A stretch of DNA of 21,880 bases, taken from a virus. The position numbers and the translations under genes were made by a program. This document shows, one piece after another, positions 1,187 through 21,880 of this stretch; the first letter of the stretch is position 1, and each line of letters begins with the position of its first letter. The notes under the pieces were generated by a model. The model had not been told where the DNA came from, did not search any database, and saw only the letters and a list, made by a program, of their open reading frames with translations. The stretch is taken from IMG/VR virus record IMGVR_UViG_3300042502_000724, positions 1 through 21,880 of that record; one strand, written 5' to 3'.

Positions 1187-1206
1187 CCGAGGGTGAGGGT
1201 TAATTG
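1187..1206 (-). promoter_or_regulatory. Candidate phage-polymerase promoter (T3-like), left copy
   Basis: On the minus strand it reads CAATTAACCCTCACCCTCGG. The 13 bases AATTAACCCTCAC equal positions -17 to -5 of the phage T3 promoter (AATTAACCCTCACTAAAGGG), the polymerase-binding half. The melting region TAAA is replaced by GC-rich CCTC, followed by a G-run as expected for initiation. It points into the RNA polymerase gene, whose ATG is about 108 nt downstream. An exact 20-bp copy lies inverted at 7380-7399. That it is a promoter is inference from the T3 match, the exact duplication and its position. Confidence 0.65.
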
Positions 1207-3067: not shown

Positions 3068-3289
3068 TGTCTTCTCCCCCGGTCGGCCCCTCGCCGACCT
3101 TCGTGTTGGTGGAACATTCATGCATTTGCAGGTTCATGTCAAGTTTCTCAGTCGGAGCCGCCGCCGATAGCGGACCCTCAAGGTTGAGAACCACACCACC
3201 CAGCTTGGGCTGACGCCAACGCTGCTCGGCCTAGGTGGTGGGGGAATACGGCGCGGTAGACGCACCGGGTCGCGAAGGAAAGCTGTTTA
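3068..3289. other. Intergenic region before the regulator-integrase pair
   Basis: A 222-bp gap holding a promoter-like TTGACA (3137-3142), a direct TTCATG repeat, a CCCAgctTGGG mini-dyad near 3200, and a weak long-range inverted repeat of CCACC/GGTGG type around 3190-3240. It separates the early operon from the regulator and integrase, so a terminator for the former and a promoter for the latter would be expected. Only the promoter has moderate support. Confidence 0.5.
3114..3142 (-). promoter_or_regulatory. Candidate host sigma-70-type promoter for regulator-integrase
   Basis: A perfect -35 TTGACA (minus strand, 3142-3137) is followed after 17 bp by GAATGT (3119-3114), a poor -10. It lies about 50 nt upstream of the regulator ATG. 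The -10 match is weak, so activity may need an activator or may not exist. Confidence 0.4.
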
Positions 3290-5478: not shown

Positions 5479-5537
5479 GATGATTTTCCTTTCGTTTTTG
5501 CGCCTGTCTCCTCAGCGCCGGGCGGCAATCCGGCGGA

Positions 5538-5554
5538 CCCGCCACTAGGGCGGG
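5538..5554. promoter_or_regulatory. Hairpin with CTAG loop
   Basis: Perfect 6-bp arms CCCGCC and GGCGGG around ACTAG, directly abutting the 25-bp repeat at 5555-5579 and lying in the gap before the 106-aa gene. No T-tract follows in either direction, so it may be an RNA processing or attenuation hairpin. Confidence 0.4.
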
Positions 5555-5579
5555 TTTCGACTAGGTGGAAGTTTCAAGC
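5555..5579. repeat. 25-bp direct repeat, copy 1
   Basis: Identical over 25 bp to 6360-6384 (minus strand begins GCTTGAAACTTCC and ends CCTAGTCGAAA). This copy contains the stop codon of the Cys-rich gene, while the other copy lies 13 bp before its start. The pair therefore frames that gene. Confidence 0.9.
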
Positions 5580-6347
5580 GAAGTGCTTTTTACCCGAACC
5601 GTGGGCGGCGATGGTGATGGACGCCTTAGCCTTGCCAGACGTGCCCATGCAGGCCTTGCAGGTGATGCAAGATGTCACGTTGCCCTTTTCATCCGACGCC
5701 GGGCAGGTGCTTTCCTTGCCCCGCACATTCTCGAAGGGCTCGGCCGTTACCCGGAAGGTCCGGTAACCCAAGCCGTGGGCGGCTTCCATGTCAGCGACGC
5801 TATCCGCGCTCGCCATAACCAACTCGGCCCACCGTGCCGGGACAGAGCGCCACTGGTGAGTGTAGCCTGTCCAGCCCTTGGCATTGAGTAGGGCGGTCTT
5901 CCAAAGGGCAAACGGGGCGGCTGCAGGATCGCCATAGGTACCAAGCCGGACCATGCGACCAGCGAATAGGGCGGCGGCTTCAAAGGCATTTGCCTTGGCA
6001 TAAACGCCGCGCTTGTAAGCATCGAAAACAGCGCGGGGACCGTGCATCAAAGTGACGTAGCAGGAACGGCCCTTCCCCGTGCCGTCACCCCGGTGGATAC
6101 AAGTGCCGCAGATAGACACATCATCCCCGGACCGGACCGCGCTGCTCGGGTCAATGTCAGAGCGCAAGATATAGGTTTGCACCATAGCGCCGGTCTTCTC
6201 ATTAGTGGAACGATTGCGCAAGCCGGTTGCGATCACCACGATTGGCGCGCCGTCCAACTTGCTAGGTCCCTCATAGAGGACCACGCCATTTGCCTTGGCA
6301 AGGGCGGGCGACAGGGTGGTTTCGGCGGCAGGCAGGATATTGAACAT
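5574..6347 (-). CDS. Conserved cysteine-rich phage protein, function unknown; first early gene
   Basis: 257 aa. Two Cys groups could bind zinc or an iron-sulfur cluster: Cys80/Cys83 (CGTC) with Cys96, and near the C terminus Cys215 (TCPASDE) with Cys227, Cys230 and Cys233 (CITCKACMG). Conserved-looking central motifs are RLGTYGDPAAAPF (134-146), WTGYTHQW (159-166) and LVMASADS (176-183), followed by GYRTFRV (194-200). I recall this combination from uncharacterised phage and plasmid proteins, and GxYGDP plus TGYTxQW recalls radical-SAM-related phage proteins, but a canonical CxxxCxxC is not seen. The ATG at 6347 has AAGGA about 10 nt upstream. It is the first gene after the host-type promoter and is framed by 25-bp direct repeats. 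Confidence 0.75.
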   Translation of the reverse strand: MFNILPAAETTLSPALAKANGVVLYEGPSKLDGAPIVVIATGLRNRSTNEKTGAMVQTYILRSDIDPSSAVRSGDDVSICGTCIHRGDGTGKGRSCYVTLMHGPRAVFDAYKRGVYAKANAFEAAALFAGRMVRLGTYGDPAAAPFALWKTALLNAKGWTGYTHQWRSVPARWAELVMASADSVADMEAAHGLGYRTFRVTAEPFENVRGKESTCPASDEKGNVTSCITCKACMGTSGKAKASITIAAHGSGKKHFA

Positions 6348-6359
6348 GGCAACTTTTCC

Positions 6360-6384
6360 TTTCGACTAGGTGGAAGTTTCAAGC
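6360..6384. repeat. 25-bp direct repeat, copy 2
   Basis: Exact copy of 5555-5579, ending 13 bp upstream of the ATG of the Cys-rich gene. On the minus strand it runs directly into the ribosome site (GAAAGGAAAA). A similar GAAAGGAAAA precedes the next gene too, so the repeat may have spread as part of a leader. Confidence 0.9.
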
Positions 6385-6484
6385 TATCGCTTGCAACGCC
6401 GCCCGTCTCGCAGGCAGCGATGCAAACGGCCTGCCGGGTAATGGGCAGGCTCCAGTTTGCTAGGGGCAACTTGTGAGCCCCAAT

Positions 6485-6564
6485 CCAGCGCGTTCCTGTC
6501 ACGCTGGGTCACCCGGCATCCCTACTTTCCCCTGCCTATGCAGTAGTGCCGCCCTAGTCGGCAC
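6485..6564 (-). promoter_or_regulatory. Structured early leader (two hairpins)
   Basis: Between the host promoter and the first early gene, two inverted repeats stand out: GTGCCG/CGGCAC with a 7-nt CTAG-containing loop (6546-6564), and CCAGCG/CGCTGG with an 11-nt loop (6485-6507). They may be RNase III-type processing or attenuation structures, as seen in T7 early mRNA. Their function is inferred. Confidence 0.35.
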
Positions 6565-6692
6565 CATCAGGTTTTCAGTCTGCCTTTTGGCTGGCCAGTA
6601 TGTAAGGGCGGCCTATCACCCTGTCGCTAGGTTCGGATGGTGACCCTGCCAGATGGCTGTGGGCCGGTGTGTCCGTCGCTTCGATGTTTTGG

Positions 6693-6720
6693 AATATAAA
6701 CCCGCCTGATTGATAGTCAA
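6693..6720 (-). promoter_or_regulatory. Strong host sigma-70-type early promoter
   Basis: On the minus strand TTGACT (6720-6715), a 16-bp spacer and TATATT (6698-6693) match the bacterial -35/-10 pattern closely, in an AT-rich patch within a GC-rich genome. It would start transcription near 6686, about 340 nt before the first early gene. This is the expected position and role of the T7 A1-A3 promoters. A small TTGA-TAG-TCAA dyad overlaps the -35. Confidence 0.7.
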
Positions 6721-6871
6721 CCGGGGTTGAGCAAAAAAAACGCAGGGTAAGTATTCGTACCTATGCCAGCGCCGCCCCGTTCCCCGAGGGTATATAGGGC
6801 GATTATGCCCTACAGCCCATAGAGCCCCGACAGAGCCCCAGCGCATGCTATATGCTCCCTATTGCGCCTAT

Positions 6872-6943
6872 CTCGCATGATATAGCCCCTAGAGCCCCTT
6901 TAGAGCCCTTAGGAGCGCCTCTAGGGCTCTAGGGCTATGCGAG
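6872..6943. repeat. Large imperfect dyad in the junction region
   Basis: The left arm CTCGCAT-(GAT)-ATAGCCC-(C)-TAGAGCCC (6872-6898) is mirrored by GGGCTCTAGGGCTATGCGAG (6924-6943), about 20 matching positions with small bulges. The centre contains further TAGAGCCC and CTAG repeats. It could extrude as a cruciform or form a strong RNA hairpin. It lies where genome ends are joined, so it may relate to packaging or end formation. Confidence 0.55.
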
Positions 6944-7213
6944 TACCCAGACGCGCTTCGATGCAACCCTAGGCCTATTTCTGGCCGCCCTACGGGCTGT
7001 CCCGTGGTGGCGCTGGTAGGGCACCGAAAGGGCACCGAAAGGGCTAGGTCGAAACAATGCAGGGCATAGCACAAGGATGCTCACACCATTGCGCTCCCTA
7101 GGTCCCCGGCCCCGCCCCCATAGCGCCCTAGCCTAGCCCCTGCCATGCCCTTGGCGCATTCACTTAGAACAATAGAGGGGAACGAAAGCACGCAATCCCT
7201 AGGCCTAGCGCCA

Positions 7214-7238
7214 ATCGTGCCACCCTATCGCGCCAGAT
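7214..7238. repeat. Second TGGCRCGAT cluster
   Basis: ATCGTGCCA (7214-7222) and ATCGCGCCA (7227-7235) are the same 9-mers found four times at 1214-1284. The 13 bases TATCGCGCCAGAT (7226-7238) are identical to 1240-1252. The cluster lies upstream of the right T3-like promoter, as the left cluster does for the left promoter. Confidence 0.6.
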
Positions 7239-7379
7239 AGGATGCTGGCCAGCGCGCCACGCCTAGAGGGTGAGAGCCTAGAGGGAAGGCGATGGCCCGG
7301 CCGGGGCCCTATGGGGGGTAGCGCCGGTGTCGGCTGCGTATGAGGGGCTTCGGATTTTTGTAGCAAAACCAACGGGCTT

Positions 7380-7399
7380 CAATTAACCCTCACCCTCGG
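7380..7399 (+). promoter_or_regulatory. Candidate phage-polymerase promoter (T3-like), right copy
   Basis: CAATTAACCCTCACCCTCGG, exactly identical to the minus strand of 1206-1187, including the 13-base match to the T3 promoter binding region. An AT-rich stretch precedes it and GGAGGA follows. It faces rightwards, opposite to all genes, so a transcript would run antisense into the terminase gene. It may be a promoter for an antisense RNA, a replication start or an end-associated site, or it may have no transcriptional role. Confidence 0.5.
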
Positions 7400-7411
7400 A
7401 GGACGGGGGTG

Positions 7412-7477
7412 CATGGATACTGCATGAGTGCTCTAAGAGTACCCCTAAGGTACCCCAGCAGTGCCCTATCAGTGCCC
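7412..7477. repeat. Array of six imperfect 11-bp repeats
   Basis: Contiguous 11-mers on the plus strand: CATGGATACTG, CATGAGTGCTC, TAAGAGTACCC, CTAAGGTACCC, CAGCAGTGCCC, TATCAGTGCCC. The shared core is GTRCCC in the last four, weaker in the first two. The period is about one helical turn. AAGAG-TACCC-TAAGG-TACCC within it resembles AAGAG-ACCC-TTAGGAGACCC downstream of the left promoter. Possible iteron-like binding array. Confidence 0.5.
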
Positions 7478-7510
7478 TTCAAGATCACCAGCTGACCCGC
7501 AGGGGCCTTG

Positions 7511-7560
7511 GAAGGTGGGGTAGTGGGGTGGTGTAGGGAGCATCTCCCCACCCACCCTTC
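7511..7560. other. G-rich hairpin / possible G-quadruplex
   Basis: GAAGGTGGGGTAGTGGGG and a GTAGGGAG segment are followed by CATCTCCCCACCCACCCTTC, giving an imperfect stem with outer arms GAAGGTGGG/CCCACCCTTC. The plus strand has closely spaced G-runs able to form a quadruplex. It lies between TerL and the repeat array. Function unknown. Confidence 0.35.
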
Positions 7561-7635
7561 TGGTACACCCCCCTCAGAGCCTCTCAGAGCCCCGTGGGTG
7601 CCCTAGAGGAGACCTCGGGTGTATGAGGGCCTACA

Positions 7636-7669
7636 GGCGCTCAGCGCCTTCCTAGCCCGCTTTGCGGGC
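7636..7669 (-). terminator. Tandem hairpins after the large terminase gene
   Basis: Two GC-rich stems follow the TerL stop within 4 nt: GCCCGC-TTT-GCGGGC (7655-7669) and GGCGCT-C-AGCGCC (7636-7648). They occupy the end of the late operon, where a terminator or RNA-processing signal is expected. There is no clear U-tract, so an intrinsic terminator is only a possibility. Confidence 0.45.
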
Positions 7670-7672
7670 AAC

Positions 7673-9400
7673 CTAGCGTAGGGCCTTTGCAGGCCGTCCT
7701 ACGGCCCTTCGGGATTCTACGCCTCCCCGCTTCTTCTCCAGCAGGGAGAAGACGGAGGTACCGGAGAAGAACCGACGTTCGTTCTCCTTCTCGACCTCTG
7801 CTGCTCGGGCCTCTTCAGCCTTCTTGGCATCTGCGTTGAGGTACTCGGACCAGTAGCGCACACCCATCGACAGCACATCGACCATGTCGTCGTGCCGCAA
7901 GGCCCCTCGGGCGTTGTGGATGTGGGTGAGCTGGTAGAGCCCCCGGTGTGCTGTGGGGGACAGGAGGTCAGCCCGCAGGACCGAGAGATCGACCACGAGG
8001 CGGTGTTGCTTCATGACTGGCTCCAGCCAGCTCAAGATGCGGGCCTCCTTCATGCCGGTCACCTTCATCCCCTCGATCCTGCAGGGGCGCAGGGAGTTGA
8101 CGTGGGTCTCCAGCAGCTTGGCGAACATGCCGTCCCCGAAGTTGTCTTCGGTGATGATGGCGTTCACCTCGTGCCTCGCGCTGATCTGTGCGAGCTCTGA
8201 AAGGGTCTCGGGGGAGTACCCCTCGCTGAACCCGCCCCACCCCGTCACGAAGACGTAGCCGAGCAGGAACTTGGTTACCACGTAGGTGGTGCGGTCACGT
8301 CCTCGGCCGGAAGGGTCGATGTGCATGACGGCCCCGGTGTACGGCAGGAACTCGGTCTGGTGCCGCATGGGGCGGTACAGCCGGTCGCCGTCGAAGCCGA
8401 CGTTCTCGATGTCCTTGATGGCGAGGTCGGGGTCGCTCGACCAGATCAGGTGAGCAGGTGCGACCTTCTTATCCAGATCGGTGACGATCAGGTCTCGGGT
8501 CTTCAACGGGTACCGCTCGGCGTCCGACAGGGTCGTGTCGAGCTGGAACTGCAGCAGGAAGCCGGCTGCCCGGTACTCAGTCTCGCGCTCCAACAGGTCA
8601 ATGTCAGAGAACCGCTGGGGGTCCGTGGGGGCACCGCCGAGCATCGAGCCGACAGGCTTCGACAGCTCAGGGTTGGCCTCCAGATCGGCCACCAGCATGG
8701 GGGCGAGGTGGCCGCCGTAGTTGTGGACCTTGCCGATGAGCGGATAGCGCGCCGGCCAGATGCGGACCTCGTAGCCCTTCTCAGGGAGCTGCCGGTATAT
8801 CGACTGTTCGCTCTGAGGGGTCCCGAGGTACACAATCTCGCCACCCGGTTTCAGGATCGCAGCGTACTCCGCCGTCTTCGTGGCGAGCTTCTCGCGCATC
8901 GTTTCGGTCTCGGAGTTCTTGACCACCTCGACGTCGTCGGAGATCACTAGGTCCCCTCGGGACCCCGTCAGCTGCCCGGTGATGCCCACGGCTTTGACCG
9001 ATGGCGACTTGTCCGCCTTGGCCGGCCCAACGTCGAACACGAGGGTCGAGGAGCGTTGGCCGGGGCGGGAGCGCAGCTCATCCCACAGGCCGTCCCCGGC
9101 GTCGTGGTCGATGATCTGCTTGATGAACGAGGCGATCTCGTTCGCGAAGGCTTCGTTGGCGGAGACGATCACGACCTTGAGGTCGGGGTTCCGCCAGAGC
9201 CGCCAGACCACGTAGGCGGCGGTGAGGAAGGTCTTGCCGACCCCCCGGAAGGCTTGGATGAAGCGACGCTTACTGCCGCTTTCGAGGAACCTCGCGATGT
9301 CCTTCTGGACTCTGGTCGGCTCAGGCAGAAGCAAGAGCCGGGTCCAGCAGTACCAGATGAACTTGAGGAAAGAGCCTCGGAGTTGCTCGCGGGCGTCCAT
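7673..9400 (-). CDS. terL: Large terminase subunit (T7 gp19-like)
   Basis: 575 aa, close to T7 gp19 (586 aa). It is the ATPase-nuclease motor that translocates DNA into proheads and cuts concatemers. Walker A is visible as AFRGVGKT (50-57), Walker B as LVISDD followed by VE (151-158), and the ATPase coupling motif as YLGTPQ (191-196). The RNase H-like nuclease domain shows Asp362 in MHIDPSGRGRD, the acidic pair in IITEDNFGDG (about 418-419) and HDDMVD (503-508). The start ATG overlaps the TerS stop (TGATG), implying translational coupling. It is the last late gene, as in T7, and is followed by hairpins and the junction region. Confidence 0.95.
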   Translation of the reverse strand: MDAREQLRGSFLKFIWYCWTRLLLLPEPTRVQKDIARFLESGSKRRFIQAFRGVGKTFLTAAYVVWRLWRNPDLKVVIVSANEAFANEIASFIKQIIDHDAGDGLWDELRSRPGQRSSTLVFDVGPAKADKSPSVKAVGITGQLTGSRGDLVISDDVEVVKNSETETMREKLATKTAEYAAILKPGGEIVYLGTPQSEQSIYRQLPEKGYEVRIWPARYPLIGKVHNYGGHLAPMLVADLEANPELSKPVGSMLGGAPTDPQRFSDIDLLERETEYRAAGFLLQFQLDTTLSDAERYPLKTRDLIVTDLDKKVAPAHLIWSSDPDLAIKDIENVGFDGDRLYRPMRHQTEFLPYTGAVMHIDPSGRGRDRTTYVVTKFLLGYVFVTGWGGFSEGYSPETLSELAQISARHEVNAIITEDNFGDGMFAKLLETHVNSLRPCRIEGMKVTGMKEARILSWLEPVMKQHRLVVDLSVLRADLLSPTAHRGLYQLTHIHNARGALRHDDMVDVLSMGVRYWSEYLNADAKKAEEARAAEVEKENERRFFSGTSVFSLLEKKRGGVESRRAVGRPAKALR

Positions 9401-10376: not shown

Positions 10377-12263
10377 TTATGGAGCGCCCCACGGTGAGTA
10401 GCCGGATGGTAGCGCATTCGCGAACGGGCGCTGTCCGCCATTGATCCGAATGCGCCCGCCGGGGTTTGTCAAACTGCCATACAAGTGCATGACGCCAGTG
10501 GCCGGCAGAACAAGACCGCCGGTTCCTGCTGGCAAGTTGCCACGCGTCACAAGAACGCCGTTACGATAGAACCAAGCCTGTCGGTTATCGAGATCGACTG
10601 CTATGCCGATGGTAGTGGCGGTCTCAGCGAACGCACTGCCGTCTTGGGCCACACCTGACTGCTGCGCATTGTTATCTTCGCTGTCATAGAAGACATTGCT
10701 GACAAACAGACAGCCGTCGAGGTTGTTAACCCCCGGCCTGTTGGCGGGAGACGTGATGTCCATTGTGCTTCGTGCTACACCAACGCCCGTGAGCCCGGTG
10801 GCAGACACGATTTCAAACTCGCCAAACCACTTGCCGGTAGAACGCCCAATGGCCGAGCGAATGCCGCTGGCCGCGCCTGTCTCGACAGAGACAATCATGT
10901 CCTGATTGTCGTTCTCAACCACGACCCCGGAATAGAAGTCGGTCGGACTCCATGTCGCAGACGCAGCTGCACCAGCGGCGGTCGTAATAGTGACCGACTG
11001 CGTGGTTCCACCGATAGTCACAGACGCCTGAACGGCGGTGGAGGCGCTTCCGCTGCTTTGCATCCGCAACGTCAGCACGTCGCCGTTACGGCATGTCCCT
11101 GTGTTGCCTTGTGATGCGCCCGCGAACCCGCGCTCCAAAGTGCCTGCCCCCGAATGGGTAAAGGTCGCGTCCACGTTTGGCCCGAGCCCGGTCACTACGA
11201 ACCTGCGGGTGAAAGCGGTGCCGGTGGCGGCACCAGTTACGTTGCTTCCGAACCACGCGGAGCCTGTCGGAATTGAGCCGGTTGCTCCCGCCGCAATCGA
11301 GTCGAGAACTGCTTTGAATGTCTCGTTAGCCGCAATATTGCCGGCGGCACTCAAATGCACCCCGTCGCTAATTCCGGCGTTCGGATCACTCGCTGTGTTG
11401 AACGTCGGGTGCTCGCCGTACGGAATGTATGCGTCGGCCAAGTCCCGATAGTTGGGACGCAAAGCCGCCAACAACTCTGCGCGTCTCGCGTTGAAGGTAA
11501 CGTGTGCTGCGTTGCGGCTGTCATACGGAGTCGGCGAGCTAATCGCGACCTTCATGCCGGTGGCGCGCACCACATCGGTGAACGCCTTGAGCTTCGGAAC
11601 GTAGTCCGCGCCGTTGGTTTCGTTACCAAGTCCATTGGCCCCAATGAATACCGTGAGCCAATCAGCGCCCGTGGCTTGGATATTCGCCATTTGGCCCCAA
11701 AGACTGTTGCCGCCGTTATTGAGATCGGCAGGGACGCCAAGCACACGGCCATTGGCAGCTATAACTGTAACAACGGCTGCGGGGTTAGCGGTGGCCCACT
11801 CGCTTGCGTAGGTGCCTCCGAAGGTGATGCTGTCGCCAGCGACCGCCACACCGAACACATTGGGGATGTTGCCCAAACGCACCAACTCCGGTGCCAGTTG
11901 TGACACTTGTATCGCCCGCAGCGACGAGCCCTGCACAATCGGGATTAGATCACCCTCCGCGAGCGGCAGGACCGCCGCAAGAAGGGCGGTTATGCCCGAA
12001 GCGGTGAAAGCACCCGCGCCGGCAGGACCAGCAGGACCAGCAGGACCCGCAGGGCCCTGAGGGCCAGCGGTGGGGGCCACCCAGCCAACGGCTTGGTCCC
12101 CATTGCCGGTCTTGGCGAGAACCTGCCCGGTAGTGCCCCCGTTAGGGACAAGGGCGGCGTCCACGAGGGCAAAGTTGTCGTTGATCTTTTGCCCCGCCGT
12201 GCGGAGCGGGTCGCCGGTCCCATCGTTGGGAGCGGTGCCGATATTGATGTTCTGGATGGGCAT
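10377..12263 (-). CDS. Tail-fibre protein with SGNH/GDSL esterase and SPRY-like domains
   Basis: 628 aa receptor-binding or depolymerase fibre. Residues 1-36 (MPIQNINIGT...KINDNFALVD) are a common tail-fibre N-terminal motif. 67-83 is a short collagen-like GPxGPA run. About 135-325 is an SGNH hydrolase: nucleophile Ser145 in AGDSI, Asn210 in FIGANG, and the Asp300-x-x-His303 pair in SDGVHLS. About 345-430 is an Ig-like beta region. About 437-625 is SPRY-like (GKWFGEFEI, GIAVDLDNRQAWFYRNG) and ends in a typical PSGYSPWG motif. Such fibres often remove acetyl groups from host surface polysaccharide; the actual substrate is unknown. ATG at 12263 has a weak ribosome site and a 33-nt gap from the gene before. 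Confidence 0.85.
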   Translation of the reverse strand: MPIQNINIGTAPNDGTGDPLRTAGQKINDNFALVDAALVPNGGTTGQVLAKTGNGDQAVGWVAPTAGPQGPAGPAGPAGPAGAGAFTASGITALLAAVLPLAEGDLIPIVQGSSLRAIQVSQLAPELVRLGNIPNVFGVAVAGDSITFGGTYASEWATANPAAVVTVIAANGRVLGVPADLNNGGNSLWGQMANIQATGADWLTVFIGANGLGNETNGADYVPKLKAFTDVVRATGMKVAISSPTPYDSRNAAHVTFNARRAELLAALRPNYRDLADAYIPYGEHPTFNTASDPNAGISDGVHLSAAGNIAANETFKAVLDSIAAGATGSIPTGSAWFGSNVTGAATGTAFTRRFVVTGLGPNVDATFTHSGAGTLERGFAGASQGNTGTCRNGDVLTLRMQSSGSASTAVQASVTIGGTTQSVTITTAAGAAASATWSPTDFYSGVVVENDNQDMIVSVETGAASGIRSAIGRSTGKWFGEFEIVSATGLTGVGVARSTMDITSPANRPGVNNLDGCLFVSNVFYDSEDNNAQQSGVAQDGSAFAETATTIGIAVDLDNRQAWFYRNGVLVTRGNLPAGTGGLVLPATGVMHLYGSLTNPGGRIRINGGQRPFANALPSGYSPWGAP

Positions 12264-12296: not shown

Positions 12297-13052
12297 TTAG
12301 GGGGCAAAGTAGCAGCCAGCGGTTATGCGCCAGATGACGTTTGTGGTTGCCGGACAGACAATCGTCGTGTTGGTGGCCTGCGCCGAGGCCGCGATCGGAA
12401 AAGCGAAGTCCTCGCGGATGATCTTATCGACGCCCTGCGCCGCCGCATCAGCCCCGAAGGTAAACGCCAGGTTGCCGGGGAGGTTGGTGGTTGTCACGAC
12501 GGTGGGGGTGGCACCTGCGGTAAGGAGGGCCGCCGCACTGCGAACAATCGACAGATAGGTGATGTAATGGCGCAAGCCTGCGCCCGGCGAGTTTAGAGTG
12601 AGCGTGACCGCCGCACCGCTGGCACCTGTGGTGGTGGCGAGCGCCGGGGTCACCCTTCCCTGCAAGGAGTCATCAAGGAGGCACATACCGGCCGAAAGGG
12701 AGGCAACGGCGGCTCCTGAGGTGTAGGCCGTAACTCGCGCGCGAACCAAGCGGTAGCCCGCACAGTTACCGGCCCACACACCGGGAGCCGATCCTGCCAC
12801 AGCCGCGACGTAGGCAATGGAGGCCACGTTGAGCGGGCGCAGCGGGATGGGCACCCAGTTGGTGCCGTCAACGGTTCCCGAGACTTCCACGGTCAAGTTG
12901 AACGTGCCACGCAGATCGAGCGTAATAGTGGTGCTGCCGTCGCAGGGCGTGATAACTTCGGCGTTCAGTGCGCCGAGGTTTCCGGCTGTAAAAAGCGTCT
13001 CTCGTGGGTGCAGCGTTCCGCCGGCACCAAGGTCTCTCGATAGTTTCGCCAT
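12297..13052 (-). CDS. Beta-sandwich phage structural protein, probable fibre component
   Basis: 251 aa. The N-terminal half has the pattern of a widespread phage beta-sandwich module: CDGSTTITLDLRGTFNLTVEVSGTVDGTNWVPIPLRPLN, later YRLVRARVTAYTSGAAVASL (residues about 40-130). The C-terminal half is a second beta-rich region with SPGAGLRHYITYLSIV, a form common in phage surface proteins. The ATG at 13052 overlaps the preceding stop (TAATG) with GGAG 9 nt upstream; a TTG 15 nt earlier is less likely. It lies within the fibre cassette, so a receptor-binding or decoration role is likely. No enzyme motif is seen. Confidence 0.7.
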   Translation of the reverse strand: MAKLSRDLGAGGTLHPRETLFTAGNLGALNAEVITPCDGSTTITLDLRGTFNLTVEVSGTVDGTNWVPIPLRPLNVASIAYVAAVAGSAPGVWAGNCAGYRLVRARVTAYTSGAAVASLSAGMCLLDDSLQGRVTPALATTTGASGAAVTLTLNSPGAGLRHYITYLSIVRSAAALLTAGATPTVVTTTNLPGNLAFTFGADAAAQGVDKIIREDFAFPIAASAQATNTTIVCPATTNVIWRITAGCYFAP

Positions 13053-13750
13053 TAGAAGGCACTCCAATTAAAACGAATGGGCCCCCCGTGCGGGGTGGCG
13101 AATGATGCGGTAACGGTGATCTCGTTGGTTCCGGGGGCCGCCGCGACACTCAGAAGGTCGATGAGGTCAACCGCGTTCTCGTCGTCGTCAGTGTGCGGCG
13201 CGAGGCTGAGCATGACCACGTCGCTGGGGGTTAGGCCGGGAGCGGGTAGAGTCGCAGTTGCCTCGATTGCCCCGTTTGGCACTAGGAGGACGACGCTGCC
13301 ATACAGCGGTGCGAGCCCTGCCGGTCCTGCGGGGCCTGTGGGGCCTTCGGGGCCTTGCGGGCCGGGGACGGTGCTGGCGGCTCCGGTGGGACCGGCTGGG
13401 CCCTCAGGGCCCTGAGGACCGGCAGGGCCGGGCACGGTGCTTGCAGCGCCAGCGGGTCCAGCGGGTCCAGCGGGTCCCTGAGGACCGGCGGGGCCGGCAG
13501 GACCGGCAGGGCCCTGAGGGCCGGGAACCGTACTGTCTGCCCCGGCAGGCCCTTGGGACCCGGCAGGACCGGCAGGCCCCTGAGGCCCGGCAGGCCCTTG
13601 CGGACCCGGAGCGGGGGTGTTGGTACCGGCGGGGCCTGCAGGGCCTCTAGGGCCGACAGGGCCTCTCGCCCCAGTTGGTCCGGGTGGACCGGACTTATCC
13701 GCGACTGCGGCGGTGACAAGGCCCGCGATGAACGAGCGAAGAGTGGTCAT
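13052..13750 (-). CDS. Collagen-like tail-fibre protein
   Basis: 232 aa. A short N-terminal anchor (residues 1-20) is followed by about 130 residues of Gly-x-y repeats, mainly [12 protein letters not shown] and GPEGPT, with three A-STVPGP interruptions spaced regularly. A globular beta-rich tip (about 150-232) starts near [19 protein letters not shown]. This is a trimeric collagen-like shaft with a distal domain, common in phage fibres. ATG at 13750 with GAGGA about 9-10 nt upstream. The DNA is strongly repetitive and prone to recombination, so shaft length may vary among isolates. Near its start it holds one arm of a 40-bp inverted repeat shared with the ejection-protein gene at 21658-21697. 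Confidence 0.85.
13669..13708. repeat. 40-bp inverted repeat, arm 1
   Basis: Matches the reverse complement of 21658-21697 at 38 of 40 positions. Both copies are centred on a small GGTCC/GGACC palindrome, and the two differences fall in its loop. Here it encodes the DKSGPPGPT region of the collagen-like protein. Confidence 0.85.
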
Positions 13751-13775
13751 GCGGTGGGTTCCTCAGACGCTCGCA

Positions 13776-14444
13776 TCAGGCGGCGTCCATCGTGACGGTG
13801 GTCGAGCTGATCCGCGTCCCGCCATCCATGGTGGTCTCGGTCGCGCTCGGGGGGCCGCATGGGCAGCAGCATGATTGGCGGCTCGACGTGGCGTCCATAG
13901 AGACGTCGTCAGAGCTGAATAGGAGGTCCGTCTGGTCGAACGTGATGCCACGGGCAGACGGGTTACAGAGGCCGGCCAGCTCGTTGTAGATGGCCTCGAC
14001 CAGCACCAAGCCTTCCTCAACAGCGGCCGCGTTGGCCTCCGAGTTCTCGTACCAGAAGCGGACGTCGGACCACTTGGCGGCCACGTCGGCCTGCTGGGTA
14101 TCGACGATACTCTTGAGGGCCTGCGTATCGGAGCGCGCAGTCTGTGCCGCTGCTCTTGCGGTTTCGGCTGCGGCCTGAGCCGCTTGCGCGAGGGCCTGAG
14201 CTGTTTCTGCTGCGGCTTGCGCGTCAGCGGCGTCGGCCGCCGGGCCGGATACCTGACTGAGGACCGCAGGGAGACTGAGGAACAGCTCCGTCGTCCCTTC
14301 TGCATTCGTGAGTGGGTACCGACCATCTGCATTCGGACCCCCGGCAGGGGAACCAGTGAGCCAGTCGGCGAGCTGATCCTGCTGGGCGTTCCAGCGGGTC
14401 ATCAACTCGACGAGCTGCGCTGATAGCTGCGCGGGGGTCGTCAT
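13776..14444 (-). CDS. Alanine-rich tail-fibre-associated protein
   Basis: 222 aa. Residues 30-60 (TGSPAGGPNADGRYPLTNAEG...LPAVLSQV) match a motif frequent in phage tail-fibre stalks (GGPNGDGxYPLT). About 65-110 is an Ala-rich coiled coil (AQAAAETAQALAQAAQAAAE). The C-terminal third includes FDQTDLLFSSDDVSMDA and an odd Cys-rich SCCCPCG segment. Its ribosome site GGAG lies within the stop region of the tail-fibre gene, so the two are coupled. Likely a secondary fibre or linker between the main fibre and the distal fibres. No enzymatic motif. Confidence 0.7.
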   Translation of the reverse strand: MTTPAQLSAQLVELMTRWNAQQDQLADWLTGSPAGGPNADGRYPLTNAEGTTELFLSLPAVLSQVSGPAADAADAQAAAETAQALAQAAQAAAETARAAAQTARSDTQALKSIVDTQQADVAAKWSDVRFWYENSEANAAAVEEGLVLVEAIYNELAGLCNPSARGITFDQTDLLFSSDDVSMDATSSRQSCCCPCGPPSATETTMDGGTRISSTTVTMDAA

Positions 14445-14450
14445 GCGTGG

Positions 14451-16979
14451 TTACTCCGTAGAGATCACCCCCAAGGACTGGGTGTGAGCGATAAGCCCCA
14501 TCGTCGAGGATGGGGCCGTGGATAGGGGCCGTGAAGTGACGGTCGCTGTGTACTCTGGGCTCAGGCCGCCGCCCGTGTCCGTGAAGGTCCACGAGCCGGT
14601 AAGGGTCTCTCTCCAGTAGCCCGGCTCGCTTGTGCCAAAGCCCGGCGAACAAAGGGTGGAGCCCGAGGCGCTGAACGTGGAGAGCAGGGTGCCGTTGCGA
14701 CGCAGCTCTATGGTGACCGAAGGGGTCCCACTGCCATCGCAGGAGCCGCTGATCTCGACCTCGCGCATGCTCTCGTAGCTCACGATCACCGTCCGGGCAC
14801 CGCCGGCCGAGCCGAAGATACCAGTCGAGATGGAAGCCGACGCCGACACCTGTGTCGAACGGGCAGCGTTCTTACGCACACCTGCGGACAGGGCACCGCC
14901 GAAATAGGCGTCGCCGTTAGTCTTAAGGTAAGTGATCGCGTTGGCCTCGGAGCATAAGGAGATCGCCATCTTCGGGCCGAACCACTCGATGAACTGGTTG
15001 GCCGAGCCGAAGCCCACACCCGCCACCTTCATATGAGAGCCGTTGTCCCAGACGATGCGTCCCGTCCCAACAAGCCAGTCCCCGTTCTGGGTGATGTTCG
15101 CACCCAGAGCGCCGGAAGTCAGCTTGGAGACATTCAGGTTCCCGATGTTCGCTTCCTTGATCCGCACGACGCCCCCTGAGACCTCGAAGGGTACCTGAGG
15201 AGAGTTGCCGGGGGTCACGATGGCGAAGCGGTCCGCAAGGATCACGAAGGACCCTGTGGCCCCGTCGTTGTTCTGGACGAAGCCGGTGACGTACCCATTG
15301 ACGTCGAGGGACACGCCGTAGCGCGCCTGCAGCCCGTTGACTGAGCTTTGCAGGGTCGAAACGGAAGCGATGTTCCCGTTGAGCGAGGTGGACAGCACCG
15401 AGATATTCGAGGCCAGCGCGTTGTCGCCTGATACCCGTGCGTTCTGCTCGGTCACGATGGCCGCTTCGGCGATGGTGATGTCACCCTCGGCCGCTGTCAT
15501 GCGAGTGAGCAGGCCATTGATCGCCGTGGCGTTCGCGCTGTCGCCGTTGGCCCGCGCAGTCTGCTCGGACAGGATGTCAGCACGGGCCGTGGTGATGTTA
15601 CCTTCGGCGGTCGTGACGCGAGCCGTGAGAGCCGTGAGGTTGCTGGACAGGGCGTTGTCGCCGTTGGCCCGAGCGGTCTGCTCAGTGAGGACCGCCGCCT
15701 CGACGGTGTTGATGTCGGCTTCCGCTGTAGTCACGCGGGCTGCGAGAGCCAGACGGGCCGTGGCTTCTGCCGCATCCCCGCCCGCCCGTGCCGCCTGCTC
15801 CGCAATGATCGCGGCTTCGGCGGCGTTGATGTCGCTCTCGGCGTTCGTCACGCGGGCTGCGAGGGCCTGACGGGCTGTGGCTTCTGCCGCGTCCCCGTTG
15901 GCTCGGGCAGTCTGCTCAGTGACGATGGCAGCCTCGGCCGCCGCAAGGTCGGTTTCGGTGATGTCCACGCGGGCCGCTAGGGCTTGTCGGGCCGTGGCTT
16001 CTGCCGCATCCCCCGATGCTCGGGCGCTCTGCTCGGTTACGATGGCCGCCTCGTTGGTGGTCATTCGGGACCCGAGGGTGGTGACAGAGGTCGTGAGGGC
16101 GGCGTCGGCGTCGATGCGGGCAGTCTGCTCGCTCTGGATGGCTGCGAGGTTCGCGCCGTCCGCCGCCGTCAGCACCGACAGTCGCTGCGCAAGGCTCTCC
16201 GAGGGGGAGACCTTGACCTTGCTGGTGTCGAGGATGAACGACAGGTTGTCGCCGCTCTTGGCCCCGATAAGGTTGAGCGTTGTGACGATGGCTTGGTCGC
16301 CGGCTATCCGAGCGTCCCGCTCCTCTTGGATCAGGGTCAAGACGCCGCTGCCGCCGCCCCCGAGCAGGCCATCTACGACACCCACAAGGCTGTCGTGGTC
16401 GCCCCTGAGGGTGACGAAGTCCTGATCAATGCGGCTCAGGTCCAGCGCCTGCGCGGTGATAGCCTGCGCGTTCGCTTCCACGTTGAACGCCTGCGCGAGG
16501 ATCGCGTCAGCGTTGAGGTCGATGTCGGCGATGCGGGCGCGGAAGTTGTCGAGGACCTGATCCTCTAGGACCAGCTCCGCCAGCTCCTGCGCGACGTCTT
16601 CGGGATTGGTGACGATGCCGAGGTTGTCCCCTAGACGCACCTGCGCGTTCCGCAGGCTGCGATCATAGAGGGACTCGACCTCCTGCTGCTTGTACAGCAG
16701 CTGCTGCACGGCAATGTTGAGGTCCTCGGCGGTGAGGATGTTCCCATCCTGAAACTTGACGAGCTGCTCCGAGGTGGGAGTGTTACGCTCGATTTCGACG
16801 GCAGCCCCGGCTGCAACTCCATCGGGCAGCCGAAGCCGCGTCGCTGAGAGCCACGAAAGGGGGAGCGTCGGGGTCCCATTGACCCGCACCTTGACGTGCG
16901 AGCGGTTGATGTAGGGGAACGGGACGTCGAAGTCGCGCTGCCCTGCAGCCGCAGCATAGGCCACGTAGGGTTGGGTCAA
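14451..16979 (-). CDS. Main tail fibre: T7 gp17-type head, repeat coiled coil, lambda J-like distal module
   Basis: 842 aa. Residues 1-150 follow the T7 gp17 N-terminal domain that binds the tail (YVAYAAAAGQRDFDVPFPYINRSHVKV, LYKQQEVESLYDRSLRN). About 276-545 contains about seven 39-residue units (AAIVTEQTARANGDAAEATA..., then AARVTTAEADI), predicting a long trimeric coiled coil. About 555-680 (SLDVNGYVTGF, GSFVILADRFAIV, RIKEANIGNLNVSKL) looks like the C-terminal fibre module of lambda gpJ relatives. The C terminus is beta-rich. Start: TTG at 16979 with GGAG 7 nt upstream; no ATG fits between the upstream stop and the conserved N terminus. It lies after the ejection proteins, as gene 17 does in T7. 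Confidence 0.9.
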   Translation of the reverse strand: MTQPYVAYAAAAGQRDFDVPFPYINRSHVKVRVNGTPTLPLSWLSATRLRLPDGVAAGAAVEIERNTPTSEQLVKFQDGNILTAEDLNIAVQQLLYKQQEVESLYDRSLRNAQVRLGDNLGIVTNPEDVAQELAELVLEDQVLDNFRARIADIDLNADAILAQAFNVEANAQAITAQALDLSRIDQDFVTLRGDHDSLVGVVDGLLGGGGSGVLTLIQEERDARIAGDQAIVTTLNLIGAKSGDNLSFILDTSKVKVSPSESLAQRLSVLTAADGANLAAIQSEQTARIDADAALTTSVTTLGSRMTTNEAAIVTEQSARASGDAAEATARQALAARVDITETDLAAAEAAIVTEQTARANGDAAEATARQALAARVTNAESDINAAEAAIIAEQAARAGGDAAEATARLALAARVTTAEADINTVEAAVLTEQTARANGDNALSSNLTALTARVTTAEGNITTARADILSEQTARANGDSANATAINGLLTRMTAAEGDITIAEAAIVTEQNARVSGDNALASNISVLSTSLNGNIASVSTLQSSVNGLQARYGVSLDVNGYVTGFVQNNDGATGSFVILADRFAIVTPGNSPQVPFEVSGGVVRIKEANIGNLNVSKLTSGALGANITQNGDWLVGTGRIVWDNGSHMKVAGVGFGSANQFIEWFGPKMAISLCSEANAITYLKTNGDAYFGGALSAGVRKNAARSTQVSASASISTGIFGSAGGARTVIVSYESMREVEISGSCDGSGTPSVTIELRRNGTLLSTFSASGSTLCSPGFGTSEPGYWRETLTGSWTFTDTGGGLSPEYTATVTSRPLSTAPSSTMGLIAHTQSLGVISTE
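15345..16154 (-). repeat. 117-bp tandem repeat region encoding the fibre coiled coil
   Basis: About seven imperfect 117-bp (39-codon) units in the tail-fibre gene, each with EQ-x-AR followed by GD about six residues later. Units two to four (AEATARQALAARV) are the most similar to each other, suggesting recent duplication. Unit number sets shaft length. Confidence 0.75.
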
Positions 16980-16997
16980 TGGGGTTCTCCGTTTGGT

Positions 16998-19900
16998 TTA
17001 TTCGAGGCTTGATGCGCGGGTGGGCGTGAGGCCCAGAGCCGCTGCGCTCTCGACGGCCACTTCGCGGGCTTCTTCCCGCTGTAGGCCTTCCTTCATGTAC
17101 AAGGTGAACGACCGGGCCGTCTCGCGGTCGGCGAGGTACCCTTGGTTCTGCTGCTCGAAGATTTCACGGGCCGGTTCGTTGAACTGGCTCATGACCTCCA
17201 CGACCGCCTCTTGGGCCTGCGAGCGATCCTGCAGGGACTGGAAGCCGGGGTCCTCGAAGAGTTGCCCGAGGGCTTGCTTCATGGTCAGGCCATCCCTGTT
17301 GTACGCCTCTTCGGCGCGGATGCGGCGCAGCTCCGATAGCTCCTCCGACGTCAGATCGAACCCCGCAGGGTCCGCCTTCCGAAGGCTGGTGATATCGACG
17401 CCAAGCTCGCGGAGCTTGAGGGTCACTTCGTCCTCGTCGGACACGGTGCCCGCCTTGATGCCGAAGAGGTTGGCCTCGACGACGTTGCCGAGCGCATCGC
17501 GCCGGGCCGGCAGGTATGCACCCATGCCGGGGGTCACCTTGGCGATCCGGTCGAGGGCTGTCGCGGCTTCGAGGGCGTGGCCGGCTATCGCTTCGTTGGC
17601 CTGCCGGAAGGTCCCCGAGAAGGGGATCATGCGCCCGGCGGAGTCGAAAGCGAACTTCTGGTAGTAGTCCACGATGGAGCCTTCCTTGGAAGTCAGCGCC
17701 TCGAACAGCTCGTTCAAGCCGGTGAGGTAGCTCTTCTCCAGAATGGCGTCACGGAAGCCGCCGTAGGCCACGGCCATTGCGGTTGCGATTGCATCGTCCT
17801 GACCGTAGCGGTCCCCGGACTCCTGCGATGCCTTCCACATCTGGCCGATGACACCTCCCATAGCGAGGCCCAGAGCGAGCGGCTCGAGCCGCCCGAACTC
17901 CACATAGCCCCCGCCCGGCAGGTTCACCCGGTGCGCTGGTGCGCCGCCAAGGTTTGCCGAGTTGGTGTAGTCGCCGTTGGTGATCGTGATTGCCCCAGTG
18001 GCTGCTGCGACCATGCCTGCGGCGATGATCGTGCCCCCTAGGTCCATCCGGGCCTGCTCCATTGCGCGCTCGATAGGATCGCTGCTGTTTAGCGCCTTCT
18101 TCGCCTCATCGGTGAACTTGCCCCAAGGGGTGTAGTTGACCAGCCCCCGCTCCATGATGCGGGTCGGGGTGGCGATGTAGGGGATCAAAGCGCCTTTCAG
18201 GACACCGAAGCCCGCCACGGTATCGACGGCGTTCGCCACAGTTGCCGTAGCGCGCCCGACAGAGGTCTGAGGGCCATCGAGGAACAGGACGCGCTCGGCT
18301 TCCTTCTCCGCGTTGTAGTCGCGCCGGATGAGCATCTGGTCGATGTCGTCCAGCCCCTCACCCGCAATGAGCTTGGCCTCGACCGCCTCAAGGATGTCCT
18401 TGGGCGGAATAGCGGACCACTCGGCAGTGAGTTGCGACACGCGCTTGGACAGAGCGTCGCCGGCCAAGCCTTCATCGAGAGCCTTCGCGGTCGCCTTGCC
18501 TGCCATCTCGGCGTAGACCTCCTTGGTCATCACCATCGCCCGGCCGTAGTCGTCGATCACGCCAGAGGCGATCTTCGCGCTTGCGGTGCCTAGTGCATCG
18601 ACGGTGTTTAGGACCGTGGCCCCTGCGCGCTCTAGCGCGTTCACGAAGGACGCGAAGGGCATGTCCGACTGCGCCCGCTGTGCCAGCTTCTCGTTGAAGC
18701 CGGCGACGTCGGTCACAGCGAGGCGCTTTGCGAGGTCGAACTCGCGGATTGGCGGCGGGCGGAAGCCTGCGGCGATCATGGCCTGCCGGGAGGTGCTGGC
18801 GCGCTGGGCGGCCTTAGTGGACCCCGCGACCCCCGCGATGTTGCGGAAGCTCCCGAGGGCCTCCCACTTGATCCGCCGGGCTGCAGCGATCACGCCGATC
18901 TTGTGCGCTTCCCAGCGAACGGCTGCCGAAGCCTGCCGCTGCATGGTCAGGATGGTGGCGGCGCGTACGTCTCCAGACTGCCGGGCGGCAGCCGTAGCGA
19001 GAGCGCGAGCGCCGCTGCTTCTGATCCACGAGTGCAAGGGGACGCCCACGAGGTTCACCAGAGCGGTGGTGGGCGTCAGCACGGTTGACTTGAAGAAGGC
19101 CTCGAAGGTGTTCCGCGAGCGGAACCACAGGCTGGCCTTCTCGGCATGCACCGGGTCGAGCAGTATCTTGGAGATTGCCTCCAGCTTCGACATATCGCGG
19201 GTCTGAGCGAGCAGCTCGTTAAGAGCGTCATCGTCCAGCTTCGCCATCGCCTCGTTCACGCGCTTGGTGATCGTGTTGATGTCCTCGACATCGACGCCGT
19301 CAGCCATCTGCTTGAACATCAGCGAGGTCGAGTGCCGCAGCATGCCCAGCTCGCGCCCTGCGGCGCTCATGAGGAGCTGCCCCTTAGCGGACACGCGGAG
19401 AGCCTTGGACAGCTCTTCCGCCAGCACGGTGCGGGCTTCGCGCTCGCCCTTGAGGACTCTCGGCATGAGGTCCTTGGATACCCGTGCGAACTGTACGCCC
19501 GCGAGGGTCATCTGGATTTTACCGACAGTGGCCGAGCCTTGGGTCGCGAGGACCTTCTCGGTCAGCGTATCGAGCTGCCCCTCGGTCATGGTGGTGCCGT
19601 AGCGGGAGCGCAACTGGGCCTCGAAGGACTTGACGGTCCGCGAGCCGAGGTTGGCCTTGGTGAGGATACCCTCGCCAAGCTCGTACAGGATGTCGGCGAC
19701 CTCAGGGATCACCTGCTCCAACTCCCCGAACTCCGAGAGGTCGAGGCCGAGGATTGAGCGGAAGTGCGGCTCCTTGGTCAGGTCCCCGCTCTCCATCGCG
19801 TCCATGAGCTTCTTCGCGGCGACCTTGGCCTGCTGCGGGGTGAGCTGCGCGATCTTGGAGAACAGGGCTTCCTTCTTGGGGACGTCGAGAAGCTCGTCAG

Positions 19901-20744
19901 CGGTCGCGAAAGCTCCCGGCTCGAGGTCCTTTGACTGCCGCCCGGTCAGCCGGTTGATTGCGGTGCGTGAGGCGTTGGGCGTCGCGGGCGAGCGCGGTGC
20001 GCCCGGAAGGCTCTTGCGAACATCGTTCAGGCCCTCGGCCGCGTCGTCTGCGGCACGGGACCCACCGCCCACAGGCTTGAACTCGAAGTCCAGCTTGGGG
20101 GGCTTTCCTTGGCGGAACTGCACAGCCCGTTGGTAGCCCGACTGGAGTAGGCGTCCACCTTGGAACATCGCCGTACCGACGATGAAGCCGCCGCCTGCGC
20201 CGAACAGGCCGCCCATAACGGCGTCGTCCATGCGGTCCATCGAGAACAGCTCTTCACTGTCGGCCGAGCCATACCCGTAGGCGGCCCCCATGACGCCGGC
20301 CTCGAAGGAGGCGCGTCCGATGTTGGACACCCCTGCCCGGCCCAGCCCCGCCGCCGCGCTGATGCGCGAGGTGGGCACGAAACCGCCAGCGAGCTGGCCG
20401 GTGAAGTAGGAGCCGGGGTTGTCGTCTTCGACCTGCCCCATGACCCCGCGAGCGAGGCGCAGGTTCTCTGTGTAGGATCGCTGGCCGAACGGGGTGATGA
20501 TGCCTGCGAGGATTTCGTCAGCAAAGCCGAGGGTGACGGTGTCCGTTACACCTACGGCGAACGCCGAGATCGGGTTGCTGTCCACCTCGTCGAAGTTGTA
20601 CTGCTCTGGCTCCCTCGCGGACACCCGCCGTGCCCCCGAAGGAACCGCAGGTGCATCGCTGGGCGCGGGTGCGCCCGACTGGGCAGCCTTGAGCCGCGCC
20701 TGCGCTTCCGCGAGACGCTTCTGTGCTTGTTCCTTGGGGGTCAT
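16998..20744 (-). CDS. Large internal virion / DNA-ejection protein (gp16-like by position)
   Basis: 1248 aa, similar in size to T7 gp16 (1318 aa), which forms the trans-envelope ejection channel. Residues 1-45 are a charged/Pro-rich leader. About 55-175 shows a motif set common in large phage virion proteins: DTVTLGFADEI, NPGSYFTGQLAGG, and Gly-rich hydrophobic stretches (GAGGGFIVGTAMF). The centre is helical. Near residues 855-990 are hydrophobic segments (FGVLKGALIPYIATPTRI, TIIAAGMVAAATGAITI, LALGLAMGGVIGQM) suited to membrane insertion. I see no lysozyme motif here; one appears in the neighbouring upstream gene instead. ATG at 20744 with AGGA about 8 nt upstream. Assignment as gp16 equivalent rests on size and position. 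Confidence 0.75.
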   Translation of the reverse strand: MTPKEQAQKRLAEAQARLKAAQSGAPAPSDAPAVPSGARRVSAREPEQYNFDEVDSNPISAFAVGVTDTVTLGFADEILAGIITPFGQRSYTENLRLARGVMGQVEDDNPGSYFTGQLAGGFVPTSRISAAAGLGRAGVSNIGRASFEAGVMGAAYGYGSADSEELFSMDRMDDAVMGGLFGAGGGFIVGTAMFQGGRLLQSGYQRAVQFRQGKPPKLDFEFKPVGGGSRAADDAAEGLNDVRKSLPGAPRSPATPNASRTAINRLTGRQSKDLEPGAFATADELLDVPKKEALFSKIAQLTPQQAKVAAKKLMDAMESGDLTKEPHFRSILGLDLSEFGELEQVIPEVADILYELGEGILTKANLGSRTVKSFEAQLRSRYGTTMTEGQLDTLTEKVLATQGSATVGKIQMTLAGVQFARVSKDLMPRVLKGEREARTVLAEELSKALRVSAKGQLLMSAAGRELGMLRHSTSLMFKQMADGVDVEDINTITKRVNEAMAKLDDDALNELLAQTRDMSKLEAISKILLDPVHAEKASLWFRSRNTFEAFFKSTVLTPTTALVNLVGVPLHSWIRSSGARALATAAARQSGDVRAATILTMQRQASAAVRWEAHKIGVIAAARRIKWEALGSFRNIAGVAGSTKAAQRASTSRQAMIAAGFRPPPIREFDLAKRLAVTDVAGFNEKLAQRAQSDMPFASFVNALERAGATVLNTVDALGTASAKIASGVIDDYGRAMVMTKEVYAEMAGKATAKALDEGLAGDALSKRVSQLTAEWSAIPPKDILEAVEAKLIAGEGLDDIDQMLIRRDYNAEKEAERVLFLDGPQTSVGRATATVANAVDTVAGFGVLKGALIPYIATPTRIMERGLVNYTPWGKFTDEAKKALNSSDPIERAMEQARMDLGGTIIAAGMVAAATGAITITNGDYTNSANLGGAPAHRVNLPGGGYVEFGRLEPLALGLAMGGVIGQMWKASQESGDRYGQDDAIATAMAVAYGGFRDAILEKSYLTGLNELFEALTSKEGSIVDYYQKFAFDSAGRMIPFSGTFRQANEAIAGHALEAATALDRIAKVTPGMGAYLPARRDALGNVVEANLFGIKAGTVSDEDEVTLKLRELGVDITSLRKADPAGFDLTSEELSELRRIRAEEAYNRDGLTMKQALGQLFEDPGFQSLQDRSQAQEAVVEVMSQFNEPAREIFEQQNQGYLADRETARSFTLYMKEGLQREEAREVAVESAAALGLTPTRASSLE

Positions 20745-20759
20745 AGGGGGTCCTGTTGG

Positions 20760-21880
20760 TTATCGGCCGGTCGAGGCCCCATTGACCCCGCCGGGGGTCC
20801 TTAGGGAGCGTACGAGCTTGGCCTCTTCCTCTAGGAGGAAGGCTTGGGAGTTGAGGGCCGCCGTCTCGGGGTCCTCGCCGTTGGCGATCTCGTTGGTGAA
20901 CCGGCCAGCGGCGCGATTTACGAGGGCCTCGTACTGAGGAGCGAGAGCGCGGGCGCGGGCGGGGTTGAGACTCGGATCGAGGGCCATCAGGCGTCCTGAG
21001 GGGTCTTCCGCCGCCTCGGACAGGAGCGTTCTCTGCTTACGCACGACGTCGCTGTTCTCGATTGCGGCCTCCATAGAGTTTGCCACGCTGTTCACGTTAG
21101 AGAGGATAGCTCCTGCGACCTCCACGTCGCTCACCCTGAACGCTACTTCGCGGGCTGCCCGGCGCGCCTCTGCGGCGGTGAGCCTACCACGAAACAGAGC
21201 CCCAAGGATCACCTCGGAGCCCTCGCGAGCGTTCTGCTCCCGACGCTTGTTCTCTTCCCGCTCTGCCCGGCTTTCGTCGCGCTCGGCGGCCGCCTCTCGG
21301 CGGTCTGCCTGACGCTCCTGCAGCTGGATCAGCGACTGGACGTCTTCGGTGCCGATGTTGCCGGCCTCCCACTCGCGGATGATGTCGTCACGGGTGGTTA
21401 CGTTGCCACCGATCCCTGCGAGACCCAGCGCGAGCCGGGTGCCGTTGACCGACTGGTCCTCGGCGAGCTTGGTACGATAGGCCCGACGCATACGGTCCGT
21501 TGAGGCGGCATACAGCTCGTCCATCCGGGAAGTCTGCTCAGGTGTGAACTGCACGTCCTCGATCCCTACGATGCTGACCATTTCACCCGAGCGTTCGAGC
21601 TGGGTGATAGGGTCGGCGAAGGGGTCGCGGAGGCGTAGCGCAGGCGTTACCGGCGCGGCAGTCGCGGATAAGTCCGGTCCCGCCGGACCAACTGGGGTCG
21701 CGCCAAAGAACTCACGCGCCGCCTTCATGCGGTCGCGGGTACTCTTCTGGTCAGAACGCTCGTAGAAGCGGTCGATGGCACGGGCTGCTTCCTCAGGCGT
21801 CTCCGCGTTGAGGATGGAGTCCCGCTGCTTCTTCGTCATCCCGGCAGCTTGGTAGTTGTCCAGCTCCCACTTGATGAACT
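20760..21880 (-). CDS. Internal virion protein with C-terminal end of a tail-lysozyme-like domain (cut by window edge)
   Basis: The frame stays open to the right edge, so only the last about 372 codons are seen. The Met at 21839 has no ribosome site and is internal. The first 60 visible residues (FIKWELDNYQAAGMTKKQ..., NAETPEEAARAIDRFYERS) match the end of phage tail lysozyme (Phage_lysozyme2-type) domains, which finish with a W-E-L segment and a T-x-x-E-A-A-x-x-F-x-x-x-Y/F-E-R motif. A disordered Pro/Ala stretch follows ([17 protein letters not shown]), then a highly charged helix (ADRREAAAERDESRAEREE) and helical segments. It probably opens the peptidoglycan during DNA entry. It lies 15 nt before the 1248-aa ejection protein. 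Confidence 0.7.
   Translation of the reverse strand, partial: FIKWELDNYQAAGMTKKQRDSILNAETPEEAARAIDRFYERSDQKSTRDRMKAAREFFGATPVGPAGPDLSATAAPVTPALRLRDPFADPITQLERSGEMVSIVGIEDVQFTPEQTSRMDELYAASTDRMRRAYRTKLAEDQSVNGTRLALGLAGIGGNVTTRDDIIREWEAGNIGTEDVQSLIQLQERQADRREAAAERDESRAEREENKRREQNAREGSEVILGALFRGRLTAAEARRAAREVAFRVSDVEVAGAILSNVNSVANSMEAAIENSDVVRKQRTLLSEAAEDPSGRLMALDPSLNPARARALAPQYEALVNRAAGRFTNEIANGEDPETAALNSQAFLLEEEAKLVRSLRTPGGVNGASTGR
21658..21697. repeat. 40-bp inverted repeat, arm 2
   Basis: Reverse complement of 13669-13708 at 38 of 40 positions. It encodes the ATPVGPAGPDLSAT linker, while the other copy encodes a different peptide from the complementary reading. The GGTCC-NNNN-GGACC core reads as Gly-Pro on both strands. 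Confidence 0.85.

Follow-up and report, generated by a model that had tools for sequence, protein, structure and literature searches.

Tail genes flanked by inverted repeats are familiar from the invertible tail-fibre segments, i.e. the G segment of phage Mu and the Hin/Gin family. For yeast, inverted repeats within coding genes have been described as sites of template switching (PMC8604942), and breaks can acquire short templated insertions in inverse orientation, most of them ~5-34 bp long (PMC11724301). In the mitochondrial genomes of Nematomorpha, palindromes are found of which both inverse-repeat arms lie in protein-coding sequence; these repeats are numerous and perfect, with lengths of up to 284 bp, and their arms encode conserved regions (PMC6649704).

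We analysed a virus record with a length of 21,880 bases (below: the window), the source of which is a temperate T7-like phage, and which holds two inverse copies of a 43-bp block at a distance of 8 kb. As in the Mu and Hin/Gin systems, the inverse repeats lie on either side of tail genes, but no invertase was found among the window proteins scanned and the repeats are located inside two unrelated genes, both of which would be destroyed by a flip. The likeness to the yeast events (PMC8604942, PMC11724301) is closer, in that a short inverse copy alters a run of codons and palindromes or microhomology can start the process; yet those events are mostly local, whereas the phage sites lie 8 kb apart, the block is longer (43 bp) and the edges of the junctions are ambiguous. 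With the coding palindromes of Nematomorpha (PMC6649704) the locus shares the placement of both arms in protein-coding sequence, but here there is one imperfect pair, of which one arm falls in a variable linker. We consider it probable that the pair arose by a short inverted templated copy from a collagen-like gene into the linker of an ejection-type protein. As such the event is an ordinary kind of mutation in an unusual and instructive place. The features concerned are the following.

3-1079, minus strand: T7-type RNA polymerase gene (start)
1378-2673: tyrosine integrase
7673-9400: T7-type large terminase
10377-12263, minus strand: GDSL-lipase tail protein
13052-13750, minus strand: collagen-like tail/fibre gene, 232 aa (Pfam Collagen, E=2e-16; PHROG tail fibre families)
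13669-13711, minus strand: copy 1, probable donor, 43 bp (codons ~14-27 of the collagen-like gene)
14451-16979, minus strand: T7-type tail fibre
16998-20744, minus strand: 1248-aa protein
20760-21878, minus strand: ejection-type (internal virion) protein, fragment of 372 aa, with its 5' end beyond the right edge of the window
21639-21654, plus strand: weaker extension of the match (10/16 versus its partner 13712-13727)
21655-21697, plus strand: copy 2, probable recipient, 43 bp, in a linker and in the orientation opposite to that of its gene

The two copies (13669-13711 and 21655-21697) agree at 40 of 43 positions, and thus differ at three. Ungapped extension to 13669-13727 and 21639-21697 yields 50/59 matching positions (85%), with one edge that is sharp (after GGGG) and another that fades across 16 bp, where the agreement at 21639-21654 may represent chance or an eroded edge. 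The core, GGTCC-N4-GGACC, constitutes a small palindrome or hairpin, and the edges of the block are ambiguous. The first-pass annotation had listed the pair as a 38/40-bp inverted repeat, which has the same core and exactly the same outer ends. It had also placed the two genes on opposite readings: the copies are indeed inverse, but both genes are read from the minus strand, so that copy 2 in the ejection gene corresponds to the antisense of the collagen-like gene. The earlier argument that the match cannot stem from a common coding ancestry holds, as the peptides agree only at the palindromic Gly-Pro core.

As a test against chance, the ejection gene was permuted at the level of its codons while the collagen-like gene was left intact. 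The best of 2000 such trials reached 31/43 and the extrapolated p is ~2e-8, by which chance is excluded for a match of 40/43. A shuffle of synonymous codons is unfit as a null in this case, because it retains both peptides and hence most of the match. Within the window, the runner-up inverted gene pair likewise reached 31/43, and six complete phage genomes of similar size, together with two partial contigs, yielded no further inverted pair that reaches 36/43 with a spacing of more than 1 kb. The inverse match is real and locally rare.

Copy 1 begins ~40 nt past the start codon of the collagen-like gene, whose product consists of a start, a Gly-X-Y body and a C-terminal part of 87 aa. The copy is found again without any change, together with both flanks and in the same orientation, in a contig from another metagenome (IMG/VR 3300034117_001082, here L003) that is 99.3% identical to the window over 9.4 kb; a search for relatives of the C-terminal part recovered only L003 and a second contig, L006. 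In a protein search the translated antisense of the collagen-like gene scores as collagen-like itself, and the translated antisense of copy 1 is nearly the linker peptide of the ejection-type protein.

Copy 2 starts at about residue 61 of the latter protein, in the linker that follows a tail-lysozyme-like part. Residues 1-58 weakly resemble the end of Phage_lysozyme2 (Pfam E=9e-4, below the family cut-off), and it is from this match and from the position of the gene that we infer an ejection protein. A single close relative was found, namely a 44-kb record (IMG/VR 3300034072_000527, here L004), which is collinear with the window in gene order and encodes a homolog of 733 aa that is 49% identical. 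On both sides of copy 2 the nucleotide identity between L004 and the window is ~80%, but at the site itself L004 carries a differing linker, TAPEPAAAPSGTAPESGG, that is 9 bp shorter, and the divergence is located exactly there. The bases that border the block (GCGACC before and CGCGCCGG after) are still L004-like, as expected if the inner linker alone had been replaced. The whole L004 record holds neither a copy of the block nor a collagen-like protein. The comparison with relatives proposed in the first pass therefore shows that copy 2 is missing from the L004 linker, but, with the collagen-like gene also missing there, it does not put the two copies in order of age. Other relatives of the ejection protein, its linker-side flank and the 1248-aa protein are few: L005 and a distant, partial L009 next to L004 in IMG/VR, and nothing in the GTDB genomes.

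A search for further copies, which the first pass had proposed for the full genome, brought up no third copy of the block in IMG/VR, where L003 is the only other contig that has it; the block is absent from L004, L005 and Caulobacter phage S2B. Phage and plasmid records contain no copy of the repeat; two plasmid matches (~90% across 30 bp) are no better than expected by chance. An attachment site, a tRNA or a known RNA was considered and dropped, as neither copy has a tRNA or an Rfam match.

Taken as a copy event, which the first-pass annotation had put among its options and which we find to be the best explanation, the pair combines a match beyond chance with a recipient that lacks the copy in the one relative available. 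While the phage DNA was being replicated or repaired, ~43 bp of the collagen-like gene, taken from its 5' part, would have been copied inversely and would have replaced ~34 bp of linker-coding DNA (a net gain of 9 bp with respect to L004). The process would be template switching, possibly started by the GGTCC-N4-GGACC hairpin, as the palindromic core could allow a growing end to anneal to the wrong strand. Because GGN CCN when reversed again reads Gly-Pro, the block would have arrived open, i.e. stop-free, and rich in Gly, Pro and Ala, and hence acceptable in a linker that is tolerant of change. It looks like a one-off accident that was tolerated in a flexible linker, rather than like a genetic switch. 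Both the direction of the copy and the template switching are inferred. As the copies differ at three sites, a similar collagen-like gene in another phage could also have served as the donor.

Since L004, the sole close relative found, is without the collagen-like gene, the direction of copying rests on codon usage. The Leu codon TTA accounts for 2 of the 454 Leu codons in the genes of the window and for none of the 333 in four genes of L004. One of the two sits in copy 2, where it corresponds to GAT AAG (Asp-Lys) of copy 1 read on the opposite strand, AAG being the usual Lys codon. In terms of synonymous usage in its own frame, copy 2 lies 4.6 sd below expectation and copy 1 3.2 sd below. The resulting ratio of ~13 for the direction from collagen to ejection gene is modest, copy 1 being itself unusual, and we read it as moderate evidence that the collagen-like gene was the donor. 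The reverse direction or a third source, in which antisense linker sequence would have given rise to the start of the collagen-like gene, or the linker would have been obtained by recombination from the collagen-like gene of another phage, appears rather unlikely to us. It would fit the absence of the collagen-like gene from L004, by which that gene may be young at its locus, and the three mismatches, which leave room for an intermediate source; codon usage, TTA above all, favours the collagen-like gene as donor, and no such sequence is found in IMG/VR beyond L003 or in phage records.

The inverse copy could alternatively have been kept for a function, either as complementary transcripts (43-59 nt) that pair as RNA, or as two sites bound by one protein, but we regard this as improbable. 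Pairing could mean a duplex, RNase III processing or control of the translation of the collagen-like gene, and a duplex of ~-110 kcal/mol is predicted between two 71-nt stretches of the mRNAs, with copy 1 close behind the start codon and both genes on the same strand. Nevertheless, any inverse copy yields such complementarity, the copies already differ at three sites and no further copy was found. The more specific idea that, in the late transcripts, the ejection message controls the processing or translation of the collagen-gene message, i.e. an antisense link created by one inverted copy, strikes us as quite improbable. As to the binding site suggested in the first pass, regulatory sites would be expected in several copies, mostly outside genes and kept in relatives, whereas here there are two copies, both within genes, and no third in IMG/VR, which speaks against it.

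That copy 2 reflects an assembly error or a chimera also seems quite improbable. Copy 2 is covered by the contig of this window alone, and L005, which overlaps the last 95 bp of the window, stops ~90 bp short of it; yet a chimera would give identity, whereas three mismatches and a sharp edge are seen, the frame of copy 2 is open and its flanks align with L004 on both sides. With 3/43 differences, open frames and a left copy that recurs in a separate contig, an error in either locus is unlikely.

Least probable of all, and in our view hardly credible, is the inversion of the 8-kb fibre segment put forward in the first pass, with the copies as crossover sites between which the segment flips to change fibre or ejection proteins: inverse repeats do flank the tail genes, and the reading frames on either side of the repeat would be joined in phase, but a flip would join the lysozyme part to ~50 nonsense residues and remove the remaining ejection protein, leave the collagen-like gene without a start and turn round the genes for the 1248-aa protein, the T7-type fibre and the 222-aa product with respect to their neighbours, while no serine recombinase or resolvase-type match was obtained among the 15 window proteins scanned (about half of the genome lies beyond the window), the integrase present is of the tyrosine type, L004 is collinear, and the left copy has the same orientation in L003, i.e. 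a single orientation across two contigs.

The inverted templated copy that we favour offers a clear small case in which a virion protein acquires a stretch encoded by the opposite strand of a different gene, which is possible because reversed Gly-Pro codons specify Gly-Pro again. It suggests a possible route for diversifying the flexible linkers of virion proteins and provides a simple sequence test for phage genomes, namely, the search for inverse matches at variable linkers. A wider consequence follows only if such events prove common.

Several observations were made elsewhere in the window. Its gene order resembles that of Caulobacter phage S2B and Mycobacterium phage jiawei, both integrase-bearing Autographiviridae. 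In the T7-type tail fibre gene, positions 15418-16145 hold 117-bp (39-codon) repeats in five to seven units, and the L003 contig ends just past them, at window position 16236. The differences between L003 and the window cluster within ~0.5 kb (14000-14500), in the 222-aa gene and its start, as would follow from a recombinational exchange. A type II hammerhead ribozyme (5498-5562, minus strand; 43.5 bits versus a gathering score of 37) lies directly downstream of a 257-aa gene (5574-6347, minus strand; weak DUF7227). This gene is flanked by an identical 25-bp direct repeat, TTTCGACTAGGTGGAAGTTTCAAGC, at 5555-5579 and 6360-6384, one copy of which overlaps the edge of the hammerhead; a weaker copy is located at 3099-3123.

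A perfect inverse pair, CAATTAACCCTCACC, occurs at 1192-1206 (minus strand), upstream of the RNA polymerase gene, and at 7380-7394 (plus strand), in the opposite direction and just past the end of the terminase gene; it resembles a T3-type phage promoter. Between the early genes and the terminase, the region ~6400-7650 is without long genes and contains many short TAGAGCCC/CCTAGG-like words. By comparison with S2B, it possibly represents the genome ends (terminal repeat) joined in assembly. The S2B record (MN857473.1) itself contains an exact 774-bp direct repeat, from 10800 and from 13659 onward, followed by further identical pieces, which starts in gp015c and gp016c of the public record and reflects either a duplication or an assembly fault.
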